Source: an uncultured Planctomycetota bacterium (GTDB lineage Bacteria; Planctomycetota; Phycisphaerae; UBA1845; UTPLA1). Taken from it: a DNA stretch of 64,000 nt. Positions within the stretch are counted from its first letter, which is position 1. Each line of letters begins with the position of its first letter. A model generated the notes under the pieces. It was not told where the DNA came from and did no database searches. It was given only the letters and a program-made list of their open reading frames with translations. This document shows, one piece after another, positions 20,546-33,552 of this stretch. A program made the position numbers and the translations under genes. The stretch lies in NCBI GenBank assembly GCA_900696465.1, contig CAADGE010000022.1:248001-312000 (forward strand), written 5' to 3'.

Positions 20546-20776
20546 GCGTCGGGTTCGATGAGCGAATGCCGTACATCCGACGATCAGTACATTCATCTCC
20601 CACCTTGTGCGCTTGTTGCGTATTGCATTGCACGTCTTGCGCCTCGATGACGGCTTTATCAAATGACTTCAAGCGGCTTTTCACGCTGCGAGAATTTTTT
20701 TCTTCGTCGTCAACTTATGACGAATGCACGACTTAGCAAGTCGTGTGATTGATGTCCTCTGTTCTGTTCGAGCGAA

Positions 20777-20792
20777 TGGCACGCCCGTTGCT
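20777..20792 (+). promoter_or_regulatory. Sigma-54 (RpoN) -24/-12 promoter of the flagellar operon
   Basis: TGGCACGCCCGTTGCT matches the consensus TGGCAC-N5-TTGCW at every fixed base, with GG and GC separated by exactly ten bases. It lies 315 bp before the flgF start and faces the flagellar genes, predicting a transcript start near 20803. Sigma-54 control of rod/hook genes is established in several flagellated phyla and needs an AAA+ activator; no activator gene is in this window. The inverted repeat at 20727-20745 is about 30 bp upstream and could bind a regulator, which is inference. Confidence 0.85.
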
Positions 20793-20858
20793 TAAGCGGG
20801 CCGTCGGCATCTGCGCCGCGCGCAGGTGGCAGGGAGATTCGACGTGGAACTCGATCGC

Positions 20859-21074
20859 ATGATGAACACGTTCGGTTGGTGTCAGACAGTGGACACTTCC
20901 GCAACGGCTTCCGGATGGGCCGAACTCGGTTTACGGATCAGCCGGGCAGCTCGGACCGCGACCGCGCTTCAACTTTGCCGTGAGCAATGGTTGGGGTCGC
21001 CCGGAGCCGGGCAGACGCCGACAGTCACCCAGGACAGACCGGTCGGAACGTACGACCTGTCCGTACGAGATTAG
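20859..21074 (+). CDS. Possible small ORF in the flagellar leader
   Basis: A 71-residue frame starting at ATG 20859 lies inside the predicted flagellar 5' leader and ends 19 bases before the flgF start. GGAA lies nine bases ahead of the ATG. The middle is a plausible amphipathic helix (WAELGLRISRAARTATAL); the rest is low in secondary-structure signals. Third-codon-position GC, judged by eye at about two thirds, is below that of the neighbouring genes. No family was recognised; it may be chance. Confidence 0.25.
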   Translation: MMNTFGWCQTVDTSATASGWAELGLRISRAARTATALQLCREQWLGSPGAGQTPTVTQDRPVGTYDLSVRD

Positions 21075-21093
21075 CAGCGAGCAGAAGGAATTA

Positions 21094-21852
21094 ATGGTAC
21101 ACGGACTCTGGCAATCCGCCGCCGGCCTGCAGACCCAGGAGTATCGCCAGGCGATTCTGGCGAACAACCTGGCGAACGTCGATACGCCGGGCTTCAAGCC
21201 CGACCGGATCACGTTCCAGGAACGGCTTAACGCTGCCCAAAGTGAGGGCGCGACGAAAGTGCGCCATCCTGCGCTGCAGGCCCTGTCCGGCGGACTGTTT
21301 GAATCACCGGTTTACACGAATTACGCACAGGCCGGCCTTGAGACCTCTCAGGGGCCGCTTGACGTGGCCATCGCGGGCGATGGCTTTCTTACGGTACGCA
21401 CGTCCGAAGGGACACGATACACCCGCGACGGACGAATGCTGATCGATCGCAACGGCACGCTGCTTCATGCCGCCAGCGGCTCGCCGATGGTGGATGATCG
21501 CGGCCGATCGATCCTGCTGGATCGCAACGCAGTGAACAAGATCACGATCGACGGAGAGGGCAACATTCAACAGGCCGGCGAGATCGTCGGAAAGCTCGCA
21601 CTGGCGGATTTCGCGGATCGCAACCAGTTGAGCAAGACCGGCGGAAATCTTCTGGACGCCGGCGGCATGCGACCGGTGCCGGCAGACGGCTCGCTGAAGC
21701 AGTACGCCATTGAGGCGTCAGGAGTCGATCCGGTCTCATCGCTCGTGGAAATGATCGAAGCCACGCGCGTGTATCAGATGAACGCAACGCTGATCTCCAT
21801 GCAGGATGAATCCCTGAGTCGGGTGGTCAACGACGTAGGACGTATCGGCTAG
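21094..21852 (+). CDS. flgF: Flagellar basal-body rod protein FlgF
   Basis: 252 residues of the FlgF/FlgG rod-hook family. The N-terminal rod motif is LANNLANVDTPGFKPDR (ANNLANxxTxGFK), the middle has GPLDVAIAGDGFLTVRT, which is the diagnostic D-x-A-x-x-G-x-G-F-F core, and the C-terminus is a coiled-coil ending in SLVEMIEATRVYQMNATLI. FlgF forms the proximal rod in the periplasm. AAGGA precedes the ATG. It is the first gene after the sigma-54 promoter. Assignment as FlgF rather than a second FlgG rests on its place directly before a better FlgG and on its shorter length. Confidence 0.88.
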   Translation: MVHGLWQSAAGLQTQEYRQAILANNLANVDTPGFKPDRITFQERLNAAQSEGATKVRHPALQALSGGLFESPVYTNYAQAGLETSQGPLDVAIAGDGFLTVRTSEGTRYTRDGRMLIDRNGTLLHAASGSPMVDDRGRSILLDRNAVNKITIDGEGNIQQAGEIVGKLALADFADRNQLSKTGGNLLDAGGMRPVPADGSLKQYAIEASGVDPVSSLVEMIEATRVYQMNATLISMQDESLSRVVNDVGRIG

Positions 21853-21909: not shown

Positions 21910-22719
21910 ATGGGTATTCAGGCGCTCTACACGGCCGCGACGGGCATGAAGGCAATGGACTTCAAGCTCAGCGTGACGGCGAACAACCTGGCGAACATCG
22001 AGACCGTTGCCTTCAAACGATCGCGGGTCAACTTCGAGGACCTGCTCTATCGCACGCTCGAGCAGCCCGGCCTGCGGAATGGTCTGGAAACACCCCTGCC
22101 GCTCGGGCAGCAGGTCGGTCTGGGCGTCGCCGTTTCCAACACGCAATTGGATTTCACGCAGGGCGCATTCGACCAGACCGGACTCCCGCTGGATATGGCC
22201 ATTGAAGGCGATGGCCTCTTCCAGGTGCAGGCCTTCATCGACAATCAGGAAAAGACCGTCTATACGCGGGCGGGCAATTTCACGACCAATTCCAACGGCG
22301 AGATCGTGCTCGGCAACACGATGGGTGCCAGACTCGAGCCGCAGATCACCATTCCACAGGATGCTGTGGAGATCGCCATCAGCCCGCAGGGGTTGGTACA
22401 GGTGCGGCAGCAGGGAGCCGTCGAGTTTCAGGATGTCGGGCAGATCCAGCTCGCGCGGTTCATCAACCCCGCCGGGCTCAAGCAGCTCGGAAAAAATCTG
22501 TATGACCAGACGGATGCCTCCGGACCGCCGATCATCGCCAATCCTACGCAGGACGGCACGGGCGCGATCCTGGCCAACACGCTGGAGCTTTCCAACGTGG
22601 AGCCGGTACGCGAACTGGTCGAGCTGATCCGTACGCAGCGTTCGTTCGAGTTGAACTCACAATCCATCCAGAGCGCCGATCAGACGCTCCAGACGGTCAA
22701 CAACCTCAGGAGATTCTAA
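21910..22719 (+). CDS. flgG: Flagellar basal-body rod protein FlgG (distal rod)
   Basis: 269 residues, near the usual 260. The N-terminus IQALYTAATGMKAMDFKL and the ANNLANIETVAFKRSR rod motif are clear, followed by PLDMAIEGDGLFQVQ, LGNTMGARLEPQITIPQDA, and the C-terminal ELSNVEPVRELVELIRTQRSFELNS segment typical of FlgG. It builds the distal rod that passes through the P and L rings. It follows flgF by 57 bp. Confidence 0.95.
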   Translation: MGIQALYTAATGMKAMDFKLSVTANNLANIETVAFKRSRVNFEDLLYRTLEQPGLRNGLETPLPLGQQVGLGVAVSNTQLDFTQGAFDQTGLPLDMAIEGDGLFQVQAFIDNQEKTVYTRAGNFTTNSNGEIVLGNTMGARLEPQITIPQDAVEIAISPQGLVQVRQQGAVEFQDVGQIQLARFINPAGLKQLGKNLYDQTDASGPPIIANPTQDGTGAILANTLELSNVEPVRELVELIRTQRSFELNSQSIQSADQTLQTVNNLRRF

Positions 22720-22785: not shown

Positions 22786-23907
22786 ATGAACACGTTGAGA
22801 CGAAGACAACCTGCGGGAGTGCTTTGGGCGACGGCGATCGTCTGCACATGCGCCGCCGCGCAGGGCGAAGAACTGCGCATTCGACCGTCGGCGATCGTCG
22901 ACGGCGAATCCGTGCTGCTGTCTCACGTTGCTGATTTAATCAACTTGGACCCCTCACAGTCAGAAACCCTGGGCCGCATTGTCATCTATCCCGCGCCGCG
23001 ACCCGGTGGCGAGATCGTTCTTCATGTCCGAGACATCCGCGCGGCTCTCGTCGAGGCCGGCGCGAATCTGGCCACCATCTGCATGGTCGGTTCCGCGCGA
23101 TGCGCCGTGACACGGCCACTGCCACCGAAGACGGTTTCACCGAAACCTCTGCAGCCCGAGCCCGAGCGTCCGAAGGCGCCGGTTCCATCGCAGGCAGCGC
23201 CAAAGCCCCAGCCGCGCGAAGTGCAGGTCGAACGAGATCGACAACTAGATCACACGCTGGAGGCCGCGGTGCGCCAGTTCATTGAAATGCGAGCCGCCGC
23301 GGTGGAAGGTCGCATCGAGATTCGCTTCAGCCCGGCAGGCAGCGAGGCCCTCGCTCACACGAGTCCACCTTACGAGTTTCGCGTCCGCTCGAAGGACGAT
23401 CGCAGGATCGGCCTGCTCAGTCTGGAAGCGGATCTGTTGCGCGACGGGGCGATGGTTCGGACGGTTCCACTGGTGGCGGAGGCCTCGCTGGTACGCGAAG
23501 TCGTCGTCGCGCGGCGGGCCATCAACCGCGGTGAGACGATCGAGGGACGCGCCCTGAAGCTTGAAGCTCGACGGTTTACGAACGAGAGCGAAATCGGGCT
23601 GACCGATCCGACGCTGGCCATCGGCCGACAGAGCAGCGGCTTCGTCCAGGGCGGGCAGATGCTTTCATCTGCTTCCGTGCAGGACAAGCCGATGGTCACG
23701 CGCGGCCAGACGGTGACCATCTGGATGCGGCAGGGCGGACTGGTGATTCGTGCCAGCGGTAAGGCACAAGGCGCCGGCGGTCTGGGTGATCGGATCGAAG
23801 TCCTACGAGAAGGCACGCGCCGCAAAAGCGATCTGCTCGATGCGGTGGTTACCGGTCCCGGAACGGTCAGCGTCGAGCCGACGCAAGTGGCGCTTGGCGC
23901 CGGTTAG
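22786..23907 (+). CDS. flgA: Flagellar P-ring assembly chaperone FlgA
   Basis: 373 residues, longer than the common 220-250. A signal peptide (VLWATAIVCTCAAAQG) is followed by an N-terminal part rich in acidic and Pro residues (PPKTVSPKPLQPEPERP, about 115-135) and a C-terminal SAF domain. The SAF domain holds VVVARRAINRGETIEGRAL, a strand pattern shared with antifreeze and pilus-assembly (CpaB) proteins, then VTRGQTVTIWMRQGGLVIR and GDRIEVLREGTRRK. FlgA is periplasmic and helps FlgI assemble. The gene sits between flgG and flgH/flgI. Confidence 0.88.
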   Translation: MNTLRRRQPAGVLWATAIVCTCAAAQGEELRIRPSAIVDGESVLLSHVADLINLDPSQSETLGRIVIYPAPRPGGEIVLHVRDIRAALVEAGANLATICMVGSARCAVTRPLPPKTVSPKPLQPEPERPKAPVPSQAAPKPQPREVQVERDRQLDHTLEAAVRQFIEMRAAAVEGRIEIRFSPAGSEALAHTSPPYEFRVRSKDDRRIGLLSLEADLLRDGAMVRTVPLVAEASLVREVVVARRAINRGETIEGRALKLEARRFTNESEIGLTDPTLAIGRQSSGFVQGGQMLSSASVQDKPMVTRGQTVTIWMRQGGLVIRASGKAQGAGGLGDRIEVLREGTRRKSDLLDAVVTGPGTVSVEPTQVALGAG

Positions 23908-24012
23908 TCACCGGCCGCAATCGAGCGAGGTCGGCTTGCGGCGTGTCGAAGTGCAATGAAGGCAATGCAGGTCGGGCGCCGTGTAAGCGCCCGATTACGG
24001 GAAGTTGACATA

Positions 24013-24759
24013 ATGCGAATGCTGCTGGGAATCCTGATGCTGGTGCTGACTTCGTCGGCCTGGGCCGCGGCGCAGAGTAACTCGCTGTTTCTGCACAGCC
24101 AGGCCGCGAAGGCCGAAGCCGAAGCAGCGACGACACAGCCCGCGGCCAACGGCGCCGTGCAGGCCAACGCCGGCGCAACACAGTCGACGGCAATCGTTCG
24201 CAACGCCGCTCTGGCTCAAGTCTCGCTGACGGCGATGACGCCCAGCGAGCCCTCGACGATCCAGGTGAACGACCTGATCACGGTCGTCGTCCGGCATCGA
24301 CTGCGCTACCAGAGCGAGGCACGAACGAATCAGCAGAGCCGCTGGAACCTTCGGACGCGGCTGGATGGCTGGTTCCGCATTCACGATCGTAAGTGGACGC
24401 AGCAGGATTTTGAGCGCGGCACGCCCGACATACGCCTGAGAAACCAGAACGACCTGCAGAACCAGGGTCGAGCGGATCGCAAGGATGTCTTCGAGACGCG
24501 GGTGATGGCCAAAGTGATGGACGTCAAGCCCAATGGAAACCTGATCCTGGGTGCGCACTCGCGGGTGAAGATCGGCGAGGAGGACCAGCTCATCGTGCTT
24601 ACGGGTGAGTGCAACAAGAGTGATATCGCACCGGATGGCAGCATCCTGAGCGACAAGATCTACGCGCTGGAAGTCATTACCGAAAACGACGGCGCAATGC
24701 AGGACCTGGCCAATCGAGGTTGGCTCAAGCGATTGGTGGATGACGTAAAGCCGTTCTGA
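24013..24759 (+). CDS. flgH: Flagellar L-ring protein FlgH
   Basis: 248 residues. A signal peptide (MLLGILMLVLTSSAWA) is followed by AAQSNSLFLHS; no cysteine is present at the cleavage site, so it is secreted by signal peptidase I rather than lipidated as in Escherichia coli FlgH. Family segments are INDLITVVV-like VNDLITVVVRHR, DRKDVFETRVMAKVMDVKPNGNLILG, IVLTGECNKSDIAPDGSILSDKI and the terminal GWLKRLVDDVKPF. The protein forms the outer-membrane ring around the rod. ATG 24013 is favoured over an upstream frame start at 23956. Confidence 0.9.
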   Translation: MRMLLGILMLVLTSSAWAAAQSNSLFLHSQAAKAEAEAATTQPAANGAVQANAGATQSTAIVRNAALAQVSLTAMTPSEPSTIQVNDLITVVVRHRLRYQSEARTNQQSRWNLRTRLDGWFRIHDRKWTQQDFERGTPDIRLRNQNDLQNQGRADRKDVFETRVMAKVMDVKPNGNLILGAHSRVKIGEEDQLIVLTGECNKSDIAPDGSILSDKIYALEVITENDGAMQDLANRGWLKRLVDDVKPF

Positions 24760-24853
24760 TCTTTTGCCGGAATTCGGTTTCGTGCTGGCAGGGAAGTGTT
24801 TCTGGAGATTTGAGTGTTCGAGTGGTCCGCAACGGCGGCCAACCGTGAAGCGA

Positions 24854-25969
24854 ATGATGCAACGTCAGACTGACAGGAAAACTTCATCCCCTCGTCTGCG
24901 AACAGTCGCGGCGGTCGTCGCATGTGCGCTGTTCATCGCGACGCCGACGGCGCACGCGATCCGCATCGCCGACGTCACGCATCTTCAGGGGCGGCGCGGC
25001 AACACGCTCATGGGTTACGGCCTGGTCATCGGACTGCCCGGCACCGGCGACGGCGGCAAGTATCTGGCGTCGATCATGCAGCTTCACGCCATGTTGATGA
25101 AGTTCGAGATTCCGGTTCCGCCGGCGGCCCTGGCCGACACCAAGAACGTCGCCATCGTCATGATCGAGGCCACGATTCCGGAAAACGGTGCGCGCGAGGG
25201 AGATCGGATCGACGTTCGCGTCAACTCGACGGGCGTCTGCAAGAGTCTGCTCGGCGGTCATCTCGTGCCGACGCCGCTGCAGGGACCGGGGCTGGACCGC
25301 ATCTTTGCCTTCGCCAGCGGGCCGATCCGCCTGGTCGATCCGAAGGTCAAGACCAGCGGGCTCGTCGTCGGCGGTGCGACGATGGAAGCGGACATCATCC
25401 ACAACTACATCAGCGAAGACTGGCAGATCATGCTGGTCATCGAGGATGTTCATGCCAGTCATGCCATGGCTTCGGTCATCGCGCAAATCATCAATGAGAA
25501 CGCCTCCGAGGTCGGGCAGCTTCGCCGCATCGCAACGGCACTGAATCCGAAAATGGTCCTGGTAACGATTCCCGAGGGAGATCGTGACCATCCGGCGGAT
25601 TTCATTGCCCGCGTGGAGTCCACCGAGCTGCTGATGCCGCCGACCGAGGCGCGAATCGTCATCAATCGGGGAACCGGCACCATCGTCATTGATGAACAGG
25701 TAGAGATCGGCCCGGCTGTCATCTCCCACAACGGGATGTCAATCGTGACCACGCAGCCGCCGCCCAGGCCGACCGAGGAAACGCCCGTTGTGAGCGAGCA
25801 GTATGCGGCCTCCATCCATGTGCCGAATCGGGAATTTGCCGGTGCCCGGCTTCGGGAGCTGGTGGACGCCCTGAACCAGTTGAACGTTCCGTCGAAGGAC
25901 ATCATCGAGATCGTCGAGAACCTGCATCGCATGGGCAAGGTGACCGGCAAGCTGGTGATCGTGGAGTAA
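24854..25969 (+). CDS. flgI: Flagellar P-ring protein FlgI
   Basis: 371 residues. A basic N-terminus and signal peptide (VAAVVACALFIATPTAHA) lead into IRIADVTHLQGRRGNTLMGYGLVIGLPGTGDG, which is the hallmark of FlgI. The rest shows the family's repeated beta segments (VMIEATIPENGAREGDRIDV, VTIPEGDRDHPADFIARVE, IVINRGTGTIVIDEQVEIGP) and the C-terminal LVDALNQLNVPSKDIIEIVENL. The P-ring acts as a bushing in the peptidoglycan layer. ATG 24854 is one of two adjacent Met codons. Confidence 0.95.
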   Translation: MMQRQTDRKTSSPRLRTVAAVVACALFIATPTAHAIRIADVTHLQGRRGNTLMGYGLVIGLPGTGDGGKYLASIMQLHAMLMKFEIPVPPAALADTKNVAIVMIEATIPENGAREGDRIDVRVNSTGVCKSLLGGHLVPTPLQGPGLDRIFAFASGPIRLVDPKVKTSGLVVGGATMEADIIHNYISEDWQIMLVIEDVHASHAMASVIAQIINENASEVGQLRRIATALNPKMVLVTIPEGDRDHPADFIARVESTELLMPPTEARIVINRGTGTIVIDEQVEIGPAVISHNGMSIVTTQPPPRPTEETPVVSEQYAASIHVPNREFAGARLRELVDALNQLNVPSKDIIEIVENLHRMGKVTGKLVIVE

Positions 25970-25976
25970 ATCGATC

Positions 25977-26366
25977 GTGAAGGTATCCGCTGCAACCGAG
26001 GTCAGTCCGCTAAGCGCCATCCGGCCGGATGCCGCGAAGGTGGCACTTTCGCCTCCGAAGTCTCCGCAACTCAGCGGACCGCGCGCGGAACTTCGCCGGG
26101 CGATCGGTGAATTTGTCGGCAATACCTTCTACGGAACGCTGATCAAGCAGATGCAGGCCTCGAGCTTCAAGACGAAGTACATGCACGGCGGCCGGGGAGA
26201 GGATGTCTTTCAGGGACAGCTCGGCATCGAACTGGCGCAGCGGCTCGGCCGTTCGACAAACAACCCGGTGGCGGATCGGATGCTCACCGCCATCGAGCGC
26301 CGGCTTGGCCGCAACGCACCTTCGGATGCGACGACACAGCCAGCCAGGGAGGGCGGCGATGCCTGA
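25977..26366 (+). CDS. flgJ: Flagellar rod-binding protein FlgJ (N-terminal domain only)
   Basis: 129 residues starting at GTG 25977. The rod-binding domain is visible as FVGNTFYGTLIKQMQASSF, YMHGGRGEDVFQGQLGIELAQRLG and a final helix. There is no C-terminal peptidoglycan hydrolase (glucosaminidase) domain as in E. coli FlgJ, so another enzyme must open the wall for the rod; single-domain FlgJ is common outside proteobacteria. It follows flgI by seven bases and overlaps flgN by eight. Confidence 0.8.
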   Translation: MKVSAATEVSPLSAIRPDAAKVALSPPKSPQLSGPRAELRRAIGEFVGNTFYGTLIKQMQASSFKTKYMHGGRGEDVFQGQLGIELAQRLGRSTNNPVADRMLTAIERRLGRNAPSDATTQPAREGGDA

Positions 26367-26883
26367 CAATCCGGCCATGCAACCCGTACTCGAATTATCC
26401 GCGCTCTTTGGCGAGTTGACGGCGCTGCAGGAATCTCTGCACGGCGTCATCACGATCAAGCTCGAAGCGATGCGTCGATCCGACGTCGACGGCATGCTTG
26501 CCGCCTCACACCGCGAGGGCGAACTGGCCGCGAAGGCCGAGCAACTCGACGAAATTCGGAAGCAGATCGTTTCCCGCCTCTGTATGGTGCTGGGGATCGC
26601 TCCGGAGGCCGGCGGCAGGCCGGTTCGCCTCAGCTCGATTCTCTCCCGGCTGGATCCGTCCCTGCGGCCGCGTCTGGCTCAACTCGCGGCGGCGCTTCGG
26701 GAGCGGATGCTCAAAGTGGCGGAAGCCAACCGAGTCGTGGAACTGGTCAGCCGTGAAATGCTGGCGCACTTCAAAGCGCTCTTCGCGGCGATGACCCAGG
26801 ACGAGGAAAACGTGGAAGTGTATTCGGCGGCAGGCGGCGCGACCCGTACGGGCGGTCCGCGCGTCCTGGATGCCGTGGGATAA
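26359..26883 (+). CDS. flgN: Flagellar export chaperone FlgN-like protein
   Basis: 174 residues, almost wholly helical. The pattern is FlgN-like: LELSALFGELTALQESLHGVITIKLEAMRRSD, then a long second helix with AEQLDEIRKQIV, and a third ending LVSREMLAHFKALFAAM. FlgN binds the C-termini of FlgK and FlgL and holds them for export; its gene stands directly before flgK, only four bases away, which supports the call. GGGAGG precedes ATG 26359. Sequence identity within the family is low, so position weighs as much as sequence. Confidence 0.75.
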   Translation: MPDNPAMQPVLELSALFGELTALQESLHGVITIKLEAMRRSDVDGMLAASHREGELAAKAEQLDEIRKQIVSRLCMVLGIAPEAGGRPVRLSSILSRLDPSLRPRLAQLAAALRERMLKVAEANRVVELVSREMLAHFKALFAAMTQDEENVEVYSAAGGATRTGGPRVLDAVG

Positions 26884-26887
26884 GACG

Positions 26888-28594
26888 ATGGGACTGTCCT
26901 CCGCACTTAGTATTGGTCGCACGGCGCTGACGGCTTACCAGGCCGCGCTGAACGTCGTCGGCCAGAACATCGCCAACGCCGGCACGCCGGGTTACAGCCG
27001 CGCGTCGGCGCGCCTGTCGGCGCTGCCTGGTCCTGGGCTGACGGTCGGACAGATCGGCAACGGTGTTCGGCTGGATGCCGTGCGCCGCCATGTCAGCGAG
27101 ACGCTCAATGCCAGATTGCGACTTGCCGGCTCCGATCAGCAGTCGGCCCTCGCGCAGCGCTCCAACCTGACGCGCATCGAAAGCATCTTCGACCCGTTGG
27201 GTAGTTACAACCTCGGCTCGCTGATGGGCGAATTCTTCAAGTCCGTCTCAAACCTGCAAAACACCCCGGAAAGCGCGGGCGCACGTGCCATCGTCGTCAG
27301 CAGCGCCCAGGCCCTCACGGGTCGTTTCCAGGAAATACGCGACCAGCTCGTCGGGCTGCGTTCCGAATTGAACGTGCAGATCGAGCAGCAGGTCGCACAG
27401 GCCGATGAACTGGCAGGCCGCATTGCCGAGCTGAACCTTCGCATCACGACGGCCGAGGCGTCGAGCGCCGGGTCCTCCGCGGCTTTGCGTGATGAACGCG
27501 ACCGGCTGCTCTCGGAACTATCCGAGTACTTCGCGATCACCGTTCGAGAACAGCCCAGCGGCGCGGTAAACGTCTACATTGGGAGCCAGTCGCTCATACA
27601 GGCCGGGCAGAGCTTCGGGCTCAAGACCGTAAACGAAACGGACGCCCAAGGTCTTCTCGCCTCCGTCGTGCGATTCAAGATCGACAACGGACCGGTCATC
27701 GCCTCCAGCGGGAGCGTCCGCGGACTGATCGAGGCCCGAGACAGCCACGGCGGCGCGCAGCTACAGCGACTCAACACGCTCGCCGCGGCCCTGATTCGCG
27801 AGGTCAACACGATCCATTCCGGCGGACAGGGACTCAGTGGCTTCGCGACGCTGACAGGGCTGACCTACGTAAACGATCCTGCGATGCCGTTGTCTACGGC
27901 TGAAAACGGGATCGCATTCCTGCCGCGCACGGGATCGTTCTTCATCGACGTGAAGGATCAGGCCACCGGCTCGATCGTGCGGACGCAGGTCCACGTCGAT
28001 CTCGACGGCATCGGTGCTGATTCCACGCTTAGTTCCATCGCTGCAGACATAACCACCAACGTGGCGAACGTCAAAGCCACTGTTCTTCCCGACGGACGTC
28101 TCGAACTGGTCAGCGATGATGGCTACCGCTTCACCTTCGCGGACGATACCTCCGGGCTGCTGGCTGCCCTGGGCATCAACACGTTCTTTTCCGGCGCCGA
28201 TGCCACCACAATCAGCGTCAACCCGCTGATGGCGTCAACGCCGTCGTTCATCGCGGCCGCCCGATCGGATCTTTCGGGCGACGGCAGCAATGCCACGGCC
28301 ATGGCCGCGCTGGCCGATGCGGCGCTGGCCGGTCTCGGCGGCGTCTCACTCAATTCGTACTACAACTCCACGATCTCGCAGATCGCGGTCAGTTCCTCCA
28401 GTGCGCAGAGTGCGCTGGAAGCCGGAACCATCATTTTCGATTCGCTGACGGCCCAGCGCGAAGGGGTATCCGGCGTCAGTCTCGATGAGGAAGCCGTTTC
28501 AATGATTTCGTATCAGCGGGCCTTCGAAGGCGCGGCGCGCTACATGCGCGTCGTCGATGACATGCTTCAGGTCCTGCTCGGCCTTGTGCGGTAG
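26888..28594 (+). CDS. flgK: Flagellar hook-filament junction protein FlgK (HAP1)
   Basis: 568 residues, within the family range. N-terminal rod/hook motif VVGQNIANAGTPGYSRAS and C-terminal SLDEEAVSMISYQRAFEGAARYMRVVDDML are typical. The coiled-coil between residues 150 and 210 has LRDERDRLLSELSEYF, another FlgK mark. The middle variable domain (about 330-480) contains a strand-rich segment VHVDLDGIGADSTLSSIAADI resembling the IN-type modules of flagellin and FlgL. The protein caps the hook for filament attachment. Confidence 0.93.
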   Translation: MGLSSALSIGRTALTAYQAALNVVGQNIANAGTPGYSRASARLSALPGPGLTVGQIGNGVRLDAVRRHVSETLNARLRLAGSDQQSALAQRSNLTRIESIFDPLGSYNLGSLMGEFFKSVSNLQNTPESAGARAIVVSSAQALTGRFQEIRDQLVGLRSELNVQIEQQVAQADELAGRIAELNLRITTAEASSAGSSAALRDERDRLLSELSEYFAITVREQPSGAVNVYIGSQSLIQAGQSFGLKTVNETDAQGLLASVVRFKIDNGPVIASSGSVRGLIEARDSHGGAQLQRLNTLAAALIREVNTIHSGGQGLSGFATLTGLTYVNDPAMPLSTAENGIAFLPRTGSFFIDVKDQATGSIVRTQVHVDLDGIGADSTLSSIAADITTNVANVKATVLPDGRLELVSDDGYRFTFADDTSGLLAALGINTFFSGADATTISVNPLMASTPSFIAAARSDLSGDGSNATAMAALADAALAGLGGVSLNSYYNSTISQIAVSSSSAQSALEAGTIIFDSLTAQREGVSGVSLDEEAVSMISYQRAFEGAARYMRVVDDMLQVLLGLVR

Positions 28595-28644: not shown

Positions 28645-30579
28645 ATGGCGATACCTGGCGGCGGAATATCACGAGTCTCGCACGGCCTGCAGACCTTTAC
28701 GCTTCTGCAGAACCTGCGCCAGAACTCCATGCGCCTCTTCGCCGAGCAGCAGCGCCTCTCCTCCGGCAAGCAACTGCTCTCAGTCAGTGACGATCCCATC
28801 GCCGCCTCGAACATCGCTCGACTGCAGAAGCAGCGCGAGAACCAGAACCAGATTCTTACGAACCTGCGCCATGCCGACGGTCAGCTCTCTGCGGCCGACA
28901 GCGCCCTGACCGATGTCGCCGACCTGCTCATTCAGGCCTCACGGATTGCCAGTGAACAGGCCGGCAGTCTGCAAAGCACCGAGGAGCGTGCGGCGCAGGC
29001 CACGGTCGTCGCCAGTCTCATCGATCAGCTTCGCAACATCGGCAATCAGCAGTATCAAGGACTCTTCCTGTTCGGCGGTCGGGGGACCGAGCAGAACCCA
29101 TTCACGACGCAGCTCGGTCGCGTGACCTTCGCGGGCGATCTCGGTTCACGCAGCACGCTCGTCGGTCAGAACATGACGCAACCGTTCGATGTCAACGCCG
29201 CAGACATCTTCAATCTCAAGGGCGCGGTTGTCGGCGGATTGCAGGTCTTTGAGCCGCAGCTCGCAGCGGACACACGTATCAGCGAACTGGGCGGCGCCTC
29301 CGGTGCAGGTGTCCGGCTGGGTCGAATCCGAGTCGATCAGACCGGTCCGGCGATGAGTTTTGAGGTGGACTTCGCCGGTGCAGAGACCATCGGTGACCTG
29401 GTTGCCCGCTTCAACGATGCGGCGGCGGCCGCCGGCAGTGCCGCGACGCTGGGAATCAGTCCCGCGGACGGCCGTGCACTTCGTGTTAGCTCGGGCGGCG
29501 CAGCGACGATTCAGATCAGCGACGTCGGGCAGGGGGTCGCCGCGGCGGACCTGGGCCTTCGCAAAACCGCGATCGCCACGGACATCGAAGGCGACGATCT
29601 CCAGAGACGGGCCACGCTGACGACGAGACTCGCGGACCTTACGCCCGGCGGCATTTCGCTGCCCGACGGAGTGCGGATTACCAACGGAACAGTATCGAAG
29701 ACGGTCACTTTCGCCGGTGCAACGACGCTGCAGGACGTGCTCAACGCCCTGAACGGTGCCGGCGCAGGGATTCGTGCTTCGATCAACGCGGCGGGCAACG
29801 GCATCGAGGTTCAGAACCTGGTCGCCGGCAGCCCGCTGGTCATTGGCGAAAATGGTGGTGTCGATGCTGCGACACTCGGCATCAAGACGCTGGACAATAC
29901 CGTTCCCGTGTCGCGCCTGAACGGACTTCGCGGCATTCATCCGGTCAGCGGTAGCGATTTCCGCATCACCGACGCCAATGGGATTTCGTTCGAGGTGGAT
30001 GTCAGCAGCGTACAGATCATCGGCGATCTTCTCCATGCCATCAATGCCGCCGCCAACAACGCGGGCTCGACGCTGTTCGCCTCGGTTTCTGACAGCGGAG
30101 CCGGACTTCAGCTCGTCGGGCCGGCCGGACCGGGCACGATCCTCGTCGAAAAGCTCAATCTTTCGCCGGTGGCCGAGGAGCTGGGAATCCTCAAGACTGG
30201 TAGCGCGACGCTGTTGAATGGAGACGACGTCGGGGCCTTCTACCAGACCGGTGTGTTCAGTGCCCTCTATCGGTTGCACGACGCACTCCTCGCGGACAAC
30301 GCCTCCGAGATCACCGAGGCCGGAAAACAGATCAACGAAATGCAGCGCCACCTGTCGTCCGTTGCTGGTCAGGTCGGCGCCCGGGCACAGGCCCTCCGCG
30401 GCCGGCTTCAGCAGACGGAGGACGCCGTGACGGCCACCTCCGTCCTGCTCTCGGAGTTGGAAGACGTGGACTTTACGGAGGCAGTGACCAGGTTTCAGGA
30501 GGCGCAGACCGCCCTGCAGGCGAGTCTGCTGGCAGGGTCGAGAACGCAGTACCTGTCGTTGTTGGACTTCCTGCGATAG
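28645..30579 (+). CDS. flgL: Flagellar hook-filament junction protein FlgL (HAP3), enlarged
   Basis: 644 residues, about twice the usual 300-320. The N-terminal flagellin-like helices include LQNLRQNSMRLFAEQQRLSSGKQ and DDPIAASNIARLQ. The C-terminal helices include LNEMQ-like QINEMQRHLSSVAGQVGARAQALRG and VDFTEAVTRFQEAQTALQAS. Between them lie three tandem modules of about 90-100 residues (near 212-310, 320-415 and 425-525), each with a strand, a helix of the type TIGDLVARFNDA / TLQDVLNALNGA / IIGDLLHAINAA, and a final LGL/LGI(L/K)KT segment. These look like flagellin IN motifs and would form a surface domain on the junction. The assembly role of FlgL should be unchanged. Confidence 0.9.
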   Translation: MAIPGGGISRVSHGLQTFTLLQNLRQNSMRLFAEQQRLSSGKQLLSVSDDPIAASNIARLQKQRENQNQILTNLRHADGQLSAADSALTDVADLLIQASRIASEQAGSLQSTEERAAQATVVASLIDQLRNIGNQQYQGLFLFGGRGTEQNPFTTQLGRVTFAGDLGSRSTLVGQNMTQPFDVNAADIFNLKGAVVGGLQVFEPQLAADTRISELGGASGAGVRLGRIRVDQTGPAMSFEVDFAGAETIGDLVARFNDAAAAAGSAATLGISPADGRALRVSSGGAATIQISDVGQGVAAADLGLRKTAIATDIEGDDLQRRATLTTRLADLTPGGISLPDGVRITNGTVSKTVTFAGATTLQDVLNALNGAGAGIRASINAAGNGIEVQNLVAGSPLVIGENGGVDAATLGIKTLDNTVPVSRLNGLRGIHPVSGSDFRITDANGISFEVDVSSVQIIGDLLHAINAAANNAGSTLFASVSDSGAGLQLVGPAGPGTILVEKLNLSPVAEELGILKTGSATLLNGDDVGAFYQTGVFSALYRLHDALLADNASEITEAGKQINEMQRHLSSVAGQVGARAQALRGRLQQTEDAVTATSVLLSELEDVDFTEAVTRFQEAQTALQASLLAGSRTQYLSLLDFLR

Positions 30580-30718
30580 ACGGAGTTATCGCGGGCGACG
30601 ACAGGATGACATGGATGTCGTGTGACGCTTGTTGGTGATGGCCATCGCCGGGCCGGCCACCGGGACGTGGACGCGCGACGCGCAAATGGCCGCATGAGGC
30701 GGCCGGGAGTAATTGGTG

Positions 30719-31171
30719 ATGATCATTGAGACGTCACGGTTTGGCGGAATCGACGTGGACGATCAGCGATTCCTGAATTTTCCGCGAGGCCTGCTGGGCT
30801 TTCCGGATGACAAGGACTACGCCCTGATTCAGACCGGCGAAAACAGTGCCTTCTATTGGATGCAGGCCGTGCATCGCCCCGAACTGGCCTTCGTGGTCTG
30901 TGATCCGCGGATGTTCATTCCCGACTTCCGGATCGCCATCAAGTCCGAGGACCTTGCGTCGGTCGGATTGACTGATACCCACGGCTCCCAGGTCTTCGTC
31001 ATCGTCAACAAGGTGGACGACACGCTGACCGCAAACCTACAGGGACCGCTTGTGATCAATGTGGCTACCCGCGTGGGTAAGCAACTGGTTCTTTCCGAGA
31101 AGAAGTTCACGACGCGGCACCCGCTGATGCAGCTTCCGTCGCGTCAGGCGGCGATGAGCCGAACGGCCTGA
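30719..31171 (+). CDS. fliW: Flagellar assembly factor FliW
   Basis: 150 residues from ATG 30719; TTG 30713 and GTG 30716 in frame are alternatives. The family segments are INFPRGLLGFPD-like LNFPRGLLGFPDDKDYALI, FYWMQAVHRPELAFVVCDP, and INVATRVGKQLVLSEKKF-type VINVATRVGKQLVL. FliW binds CsrA and is displaced by flagellin, so export of flagellin frees FliW to block CsrA. Its neighbours csrA and flagellin are in the order known from Bacillus and Campylobacter-type systems. Confidence 0.95.
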   Translation: MIIETSRFGGIDVDDQRFLNFPRGLLGFPDDKDYALIQTGENSAFYWMQAVHRPELAFVVCDPRMFIPDFRIAIKSEDLASVGLTDTHGSQVFVIVNKVDDTLTANLQGPLVINVATRVGKQLVLSEKKFTTRHPLMQLPSRQAAMSRTA

Positions 31172-31534: not shown

Positions 31535-31858
31535 ATGTTGGTCTTATCGCGTCAGCGTGACGAGACGATCATGATCGGCGACGACATCGAGATCACGATC
31601 GTTGATATTCGTGGAGATAAAGTACGACTCGGAATCACGGCGCCGTCGCATGTGCCGGTGCACCGGAAGGAAGTCTACGACGCCATCCAGCGCGAGAACC
31701 GCGCCGCGGCGAACATCAAGCCGGAGGATCTGCCGTCGGAGGGCCCGGCTGTGAAGCGACGGGGTGAAGGAAATTCAGAAGGGCGAGGCCGCGGTGCCGA
31801 AGGAAATCGGGGTCGAGGGCCGGAAGGGCCCCGAGATCCGGGGCGCGGCGGAACGTAG
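31535..31858 (+). CDS. csrA: Carbon storage regulator CsrA with C-terminal tail
   Basis: 107 residues. The first 62 are a normal Csr[21 protein letters not shown], then [18 protein letters not shown] and [12 protein letters not shown] with Leu4 and Arg44, the RNA-contact residues. The last 45 are an added tail rich in Gly, Arg, Glu and Pro ([14 protein letters not shown] and similar). CsrA binds GGA in hairpin loops, often masking a ribosome-binding site. AAGGAGA precedes ATG 31535. FliW upstream and flagellin downstream point to flagellin mRNA as the target. The tail could add RNA affinity or contact FliW; this is inference. Confidence 0.93.
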
Positions 31859-32112: not shown

Positions 32113-33552
32113 ATGGCTCGGATCAATACGAACACTGCCTCGATACTTGCGGCGCGCCAGCTTGGCCGCTCCAACGAGCAATTGAGGTCTTCGCTCGAAC
32201 GGCTCTCCTCCGGTCTGCGGATCAATCGCGGAGCGGACGATCCGGCAGGGCTCATCATCTCCCAGAGCTTGCGCTCGGAGATCCAGGGTGTCCGGCAGGC
32301 GATTACCAACTCACAGCGGGCTTCAAACGTCATCGCGACGACGGAAGGCGCGCTCAACGAGGTCTCTTCGCTGCTGAACGACATCCAGGCGAAGATCGTC
32401 GAGGCCGCCAACGCAGGTGCCGTCTCCGAGGACGAGATCCGGGCGAACCAGCTTCAGATCGACTCGGCGATTGCCTCGATTACGCGCATCGCCAACACGA
32501 CGACCTTCGGCGGTCGAAAGCTGCTCAACGGATCGCTGGGCTACATCACCAGCGGCGTCAACATCTCCAACATCTCCGACCTGCGGGTCCACGGCGTGTC
32601 GTTCGGCACGGCGAGCTACGTCCCCGTGACGGTCAGCGTCCTGCAGTCGGCACAGCACGCGGCCCTCGAGTTCCGCACCAGCTCCATCACCGCCGACGTG
32701 ACCCTCGAGCTGGCCGGCCCCAACGGCGTGACGGGTCTCCCGCTCCTTGCCGGCACGACCGCCAGCGCGATTGCCGCGGCGATCAATCTCGTCAGCGACG
32801 CGACCGGTGTGAGGGCCTCGCTCATCAACGACGCAAACGCCGCGAGCGGCATCGTGCTCTCGTCCATGGAGTACGGCAGTAACGCCTTCGTGCAGGTCAC
32901 CGAGATCGGTACGACACCCAACGTCTTTTCCACCGTGGACGGCGACGGTAACACGGTCAACCGCGACATCGGTCGCGATGCGACGGTCACCGTCAACGGC
33001 ACCAGCGCCCTGGGGCGCGGTCTCGACGTTTTCCTCAATACCACCGGCCTGTCGCTCGAGCTACGGCTCCAGGAATCCTTCAACGTGGTCGGCTCGACGA
33101 CCTTCGCCATCACCGGCGGTGGGGCATCGTTCCAGCTCGGACCGGGCGTCGACTCCAACCAGCAGGTCAACATTGGTGTCCAGTCGGTGGCGGCCTCGCG
33201 GCTGGGCAACGCCGGCGTCGGATACCTCTCCGATATCGCCAGCGGCGGTCCGTCGAGTCTCGTCAAGGGCGAAGCGGCGCAGGCCTCACGCATCATCGCC
33301 GAAGCCATCCGACAGGTGTCCATGATTCGCGGACGCCTCGGCGCCTTCGAAAAGAACACCGTCGATACCAACGTCAACCAGCTCCAGATCACCCTGGAGA
33401 ACCTGACAGCGTCGGAATCCACCATCCGAGACCTCGACTTTGCACGCGAGACCAGCGAACTGACCCGCGCTCAGATTCTCATGAACGCGGGTACCAGCAT
33501 CCTCGCGATCGCCAACCAGACGCCGCAGACCGTCCTGTCGCTCTTGCGATAA
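32113..33552 (+). CDS. fliC: Flagellin
   Basis: 479 residues. The N-terminal D0/D1 region shows the family pattern INTNTASILAARQLGRS, LERLSSGLRINRGADDPAGL and TTEGALNEVSSLLND. The C-terminal region has SMIRGRLGAFEKNTVDTN, RDLDFARETSELTRAQIL and the terminal ANQTPQTVLSLLR. The central 200 residues form a surface domain with an IN-type module (TASAIAAAINLVSDATGVRASL). There is no cysteine. Only one flagellin gene is in the window. GGGAGG lies nine bases before the ATG. Secretion by the flagellar type III system and FliW binding of the C-terminus follow from the family. Confidence 0.96.
   Translation: MARINTNTASILAARQLGRSNEQLRSSLERLSSGLRINRGADDPAGLIISQSLRSEIQGVRQAITNSQRASNVIATTEGALNEVSSLLNDIQAKIVEAANAGAVSEDEIRANQLQIDSAIASITRIANTTTFGGRKLLNGSLGYITSGVNISNISDLRVHGVSFGTASYVPVTVSVLQSAQHAALEFRTSSITADVTLELAGPNGVTGLPLLAGTTASAIAAAINLVSDATGVRASLINDANAASGIVLSSMEYGSNAFVQVTEIGTTPNVFSTVDGDGNTVNRDIGRDATVTVNGTSALGRGLDVFLNTTGLSLELRLQESFNVVGSTTFAITGGGASFQLGPGVDSNQQVNIGVQSVAASRLGNAGVGYLSDIASGGPSSLVKGEAAQASRIIAEAIRQVSMIRGRLGAFEKNTVDTNVNQLQITLENLTASESTIRDLDFARETSELTRAQILMNAGTSILAIANQTPQTVLSLLR

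Follow-up and report, generated by a model that had tools for sequence, protein, structure and literature searches.

Does the sequence ahead of flgF in this 4.14-Mb genome of the class Phycisphaerae act as a sigma-54 promoter for the flagellar rod, ring and junction genes, and what fills the long interval between it and the first rod gene? The question arises from a -24/-12 box in the window (the whole 64-kb stretch of DNA that was analysed), in which an earlier note had seen all fixed bases of TGGCAC-N5-TTGCW facing flgF. That description is exact: the box matches with zero mismatches, is the sole such match in the window, and holds the GG and GC dinucleotides 10 bp apart in TGGCAC-N5-TTGC, as expected of a sigma-54 promoter. 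The features of the promoter region are:

20727..20745, no strand: perfect inverted repeat CACGACTT-AGC-AAGTCGTG (CACGACTTAGCAAGTCGTG), containing ACTTAGCAA (20731-20739); possible activator site, a tentative role
20777..20792, + strand: sigma-54 (-24/-12) promoter TGGCAC-GCCCG-TTGCT (TGGCACGCCCGTTGCT); exact match, unique in the window, kept before flgF in relatives
20803, + strand: transcription start as predicted from the usual sigma-54 geometry, 12 nt beyond the C of the GC at -12

Shuffled windows contained a mean of 0.06 perfect matches, and at least one match occurred in 6/100 of them, so that a fortuitous match, with flgF served by a different promoter, has to be considered. Genome-wide, there are eight perfect TGGCAC-N5-TTGCW sites against two for a backwards control pattern; when one mismatch is allowed, the count (134 sites) shows no excess over the control (150), and weight was therefore given only to perfect or conserved boxes. 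Against a chance match stand the position and orientation of the box, its conservation across the class, and the presence in the genome of rpoN and a flagellar activator (see below); a chance origin is scarcely credible. Three of the other perfect sites in the genome lie ~110 nt upstream of dnaK (L004 [G000:C39:20261], 1501-1516), upstream of a gene resembling hcp of the type VI secretion system (L007 [G000:C42:164739], 1501-1516), and upstream of a gene resembling acetyl-CoA synthetase (L006 [G000:C40:53359], 1501-1516). The dnaK site recalls the sigma-54 sites before chaperone genes that are reported, in passages of a study of sigma-54 regulons, for Planctomycetota and Bacteroidota (PMC12316311).

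The strongest evidence for a functional site is the conservation of the box across the class. The pattern TGGCAY-N6-TGC occurs within 500 nt upstream of flgF at 26 of 38 Planctomycetota loci, with a shuffle expectation of 0.19, and the antisense, backwards-pattern and downstream controls of the same scan each gave 0. The relatives of FlgF in named records belong to Phycisphaerae and other Planctomycetota. Most of the 15 flgF loci of the family carry the -24/-12 box 265-384 nt upstream of flgF; the scan missed a box at some loci, including the family loci L031 and L032.

The machinery that such a promoter requires is also encoded. The earlier note had named the lack of an rpoN gene as a finding that would speak against the promoter; the genome has one rpoN, on contig C40 (Sigma54_AID, E=1e-12), together with seven complete RpoN activators (Sigma54_activat), and enhancer-binding AAA+ proteins are thus available. 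One activator lies among flagellar genes:

C40:15686-17092: NtrC-type activator with receiver domain, AAA+ domain with GAFTGA, and Fis-type HTH

This gene is preceded by a HisKA/HATPase kinase and followed by TGGCACGCCGCTTGC, flgB, and flgC. TGGCACGCCGCTTGC is a second core-perfect -24/-12 box, situated between the activator and flgB on a different contig from the window, so that boxes precede both the flgB and the flgF operons. The earlier note had proposed a search for further -24/-12 sites before flagellar genes and for an activator gene of the FleQ/FlrC type; a further site is found here before flgB, and adjoining it an FlgR/FlrC-like regulator with its histidine kinase. Read from order and sequence, the genes downstream of flgC would be fliE to fliJ, flgD, flgE, flhB, flhA, flhF, flhG, and fliA. 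The flgB-side activator is kept in 17/17 family genomes, in 11 of which TGGCAY-N5-TTGC lies between it and flgB. In G016, a genome of the same genus (97% complete), there is no match to flgF, flgG, or the small gene described below, and the flgB-side activator (91% identical) and its box are retained; either the second flagellar operon has been lost or there is an assembly gap. The claim that the rod and ring operon is faced by an RpoN-dependent promoter thus held, on the presence of rpoN, of the NtrC-type activator and kinase before flgB, and of a box conserved class-wide, and the sigma-54 reading of the flgF box is strongly supported by these sequence comparisons. Judged by gene position, the activator at C40:15686-17092 is the one most likely to act on the flgF promoter.

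The inverted repeat upstream of the box, which had been suggested to take part, fared less well. No other copy was found in the genome at up to two mismatches and the three-mismatch count equals the control, so the repeat was rejected as a genome-wide operator; its symmetry is absent in relatives. A shorter segment does recur: ACTTAGCGA, one mismatch from the ACTTAGCAA of the window, is found 45-47 nt before the box in three family genomes (G015, G011, and G012), of which one is congeneric and two come from a second genus, giving the pattern ACTTAGCRA. Neither the segment nor the repeat was found before flgB, and no inverted-repeat enhancer site (UAS) common to the promoters of the same activator was identified. 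The ACTTAGCRA segment is a possible activator site, a lead chosen after the fact.

Control of this kind has an experimental parallel, since the Vibrio cholerae flgF promoter (flgFGHIJ) has been shown to be FlrBC- and sigma-54-dependent (PMC7064773). V. cholerae FlrBC and the Campylobacter jejuni FlgSR and Pseudomonas FleSR systems share with this locus sigma-54 promoters both immediately before the flgF rod operon and ahead of flgB, an NtrC-type regulator and kinase among the flagellar genes, and flhF and flhG in the same cluster (here as read from gene order). They differ in that the organism here is a member of the Planctomycetota, the kinase-regulator pair stands immediately before the flgB box, an extra small gene lies between the box and flgF, and no FlrA/FleQ-type master regulator came up among the genes assigned. 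Sigma-54 promoters are computationally enriched upstream of flagellar basal-body genes in Planctomycetia, according to passages of PMC12316311; these passages agree with our data in placing such promoters at basal-body genes, but name neither flgF nor flgB and mention neither Phycisphaerae flagella nor a small gene. The predicted promoter is the known FlgSR/FlrBC-sigma-54 logic of rod operons, in another phylum.

The operon that it would serve comprises the following features:

21083..21089, + strand: Shine-Dalgarno AGAAGGA of flgF, from sequence
21094..21852, + strand: flgF (proximal rod); Pfam Flg_bb_rod, D1, and Flg_bbr_C domains, and orthologues
21910..22719, + strand: flgG (distal rod); Pfam
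22786..23907, + strand: flgA (P-ring chaperone); ChapFlgA
23956..24759, + strand: flgH (L-ring); Pfam FlgH
24764..25969, + strand: flgI (P-ring; start may be later); Pfam FlgI
26203..26883, + strand: flgN (chaperone; true start probably later); Pfam FlgN
26870..28594, + strand: flgK; Pfam FlgK_D1
28645..30579, + strand: flgL-like hook-filament junction protein; Pfam Flagellin_N/C and IN motif, flgL from its order after flgK

A short gene between flgI and flgN (25977-26366) has no Pfam match and, by position and sequence, may encode the rod-binding protein FlgJ. After flgL, fliW and csrA-like genes (30713-31171; ~31535-31858) lie ahead of flagellin (32113-33552), and a search upstream of it with simple consensus patterns gave no clear box for either sigma-54 or sigma-28.

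The distance from the predicted start (~20803) to the flgF ATG (21094) is ~290 nt, as the earlier note had stated in predicting a 290-nt leader; the distance stands, but the term leader does not, since most of the interval is occupied by a conserved small gene, and the 5' untranslated stretch would really be ~41 nt when counted from the predicted start:

20832..20836, + strand: Shine-Dalgarno GGGAG of the small gene, from sequence; 7 nt before the GTG
20844..21074, + strand: small gene of 76 aa, GTG to TAG, first cistron; core GWAELGLRISRAARTATALQL, predicted helix at residues 22-50; from syntenic homologues, codon-position entropy, and an AlphaFold2 model

The small gene is present at 14/15 family flgF loci, the exception being L031. 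A first profile built from these 14 family sequences recovered the gene at the same place in families outside the training set (L081-L085, L089, and L101; E 1e-4 to 1e-11), and a 28-sequence profile placed it at nearly all 38 flgF loci, with a reverse-strand control no better than E=0.3. The weak scorers L103, L105, and L111 retain an ATGA-type overlap with flgF and an LGxxVL-like core; L086-L088 have no recognisable core. When the 28-sequence profile was run against 298 Phycisphaerae genomes, blind to flgF, the best 30 matches were all directly upstream of flgF; 21 of these loci were in the training alignment and nine outside it, and the seven that were in neither alignment are likewise directly upstream of flgF. 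A phylum-wide search outside the class gave weak matches only, mostly within long frames and none beside flgF; within the reach of these tools, the small gene is thus confined to the class. At L079 and L080, the start used is 17 nt past the box, ahead of the expected transcript start, and the true start must be later. Longer forms with C-terminal extensions occur at L074 (2684-3001; 106 aa) and L094 (604-990; 129 aa).

The manner of conservation bears on whether the interval of 250-290 nt could be a genuine untranslated leader, perhaps with an RNA element. Its length is roughly similar among relatives, as such a leader would require, but the conservation is at the level of amino acids, with third codon positions free: codon entropy across the 20-residue core is 1.17/1.02/1.45 at positions 1/2/3, the third being highest, and reaches 0/0.19/1.94 at the near-invariant Gly. 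Start codons with ribosome sites also recur among the loci, with stops fitted to the flgF start, and an untranslated leader is highly improbable. We infer from these comparisons that the frame encodes a previously unrecognised small protein (~75 residues) that is almost always directly upstream of flgF in the class; a literature search returned no report of a small protein in this position.

The predicted protein has a core DWxxLGxR[VI]xxA that leads into an alanine-rich helix, with flanks that vary freely. AlphaFold2 predicts a single helix (residues 22-50; pLDDT ~97 in mid-helix) with low confidence outside it, suggesting one amphipathic helix within a disordered chain. Because the conserved residues W25, L28, G29, I32, A36, and A39 share one face of the helix, this face may be a binding surface.

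The small frame could, alternatively, be a leader cistron acting only in cis behind a real promoter, its translation opening the flgF ribosome site and its peptide having no job of its own. This would fit the frequent ATGA overlap of its stop with the flgF start (20/29 loci), the rapid change outside the core, where even close pairs differ at many amino acids (a pattern that would also suit a loose role), and its occurrence only ever before flgF. It accounts less readily for the 20-residue core, the conserved helix face (W, L, G, I/V, A, A) and the free third codon positions across families, which point to a peptide under selection; moreover, in the window the small frame stops short of flgF, for which a strong ribosome site is provided separately. 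We regard coupling in cis as the sole role of the frame as unlikely, and favour a small flagellar accessory protein that would be co-translated with FlgF.

As to the identity of this accessory protein, Pfam, NCBIfam, and PHROGs hold no model that matches it beyond chance, and a PDB sequence search gave chance-level matches only (best E=0.33). It resembles FlgM (PF04316), the anti-sigma-28 factor, in being small, mostly disordered, and flagellar, and its location in a hook-basal-body operon is also FlgM-like, which could indicate a divergent FlgM or another known flagellar chaperone. Yet at E<=1 no member of the small-protein set matches FlgM (PF04316) or a chaperone model; FlgM-like genes are found at separate loci, one per genome, in 16/17 family genomes (the match in the genome studied here being below the Pfam cut-off); and the chaperone FlgN is encoded separately at 26203-26883. 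FlgM was rejected as the identity of the protein, and it is very unlikely to be either FlgM or a known chaperone in divergent form.

Taken together, the box very probably functions as a sigma-54 promoter of the rod, ring and junction operon, with a 76-residue flagellar accessory protein found class-wide as the first gene product. RNA polymerase with RpoN would bind 20777-20792 and start transcription near 20803 once an NtrC-type response regulator has been phosphorylated; the FlgR/FlrC-like protein whose gene lies with that of its kinase before flgB is the likeliest candidate. The transcript would carry, in order, the 76-residue gene with its own ribosome site, flgF, flgG, flgA, flgH, flgI, and onward, the length of the operon being a prediction. 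The small protein would be made together with FlgF and would most likely bind a rod or export partner. Whether it represents a new Phycisphaerae flagellar family, a single-helix partner made along with FlgF and having a role in trans in the assembly of the rod, the loading of the export gate, or the sigma-54 checkpoint, is a proposal for and against which we see the balance as even.

With strong comparative support, the promoter extends the control of rod genes by a two-component NtrC-type regulator and sigma-54 to the Phycisphaerae. The newer part is the small gene, which is conserved class-wide, fixed ahead of flgF, and named by no family library; should its product prove to be a part or regulator of the flagellum, a component would be added to a machine that is usually thought to be fully listed.
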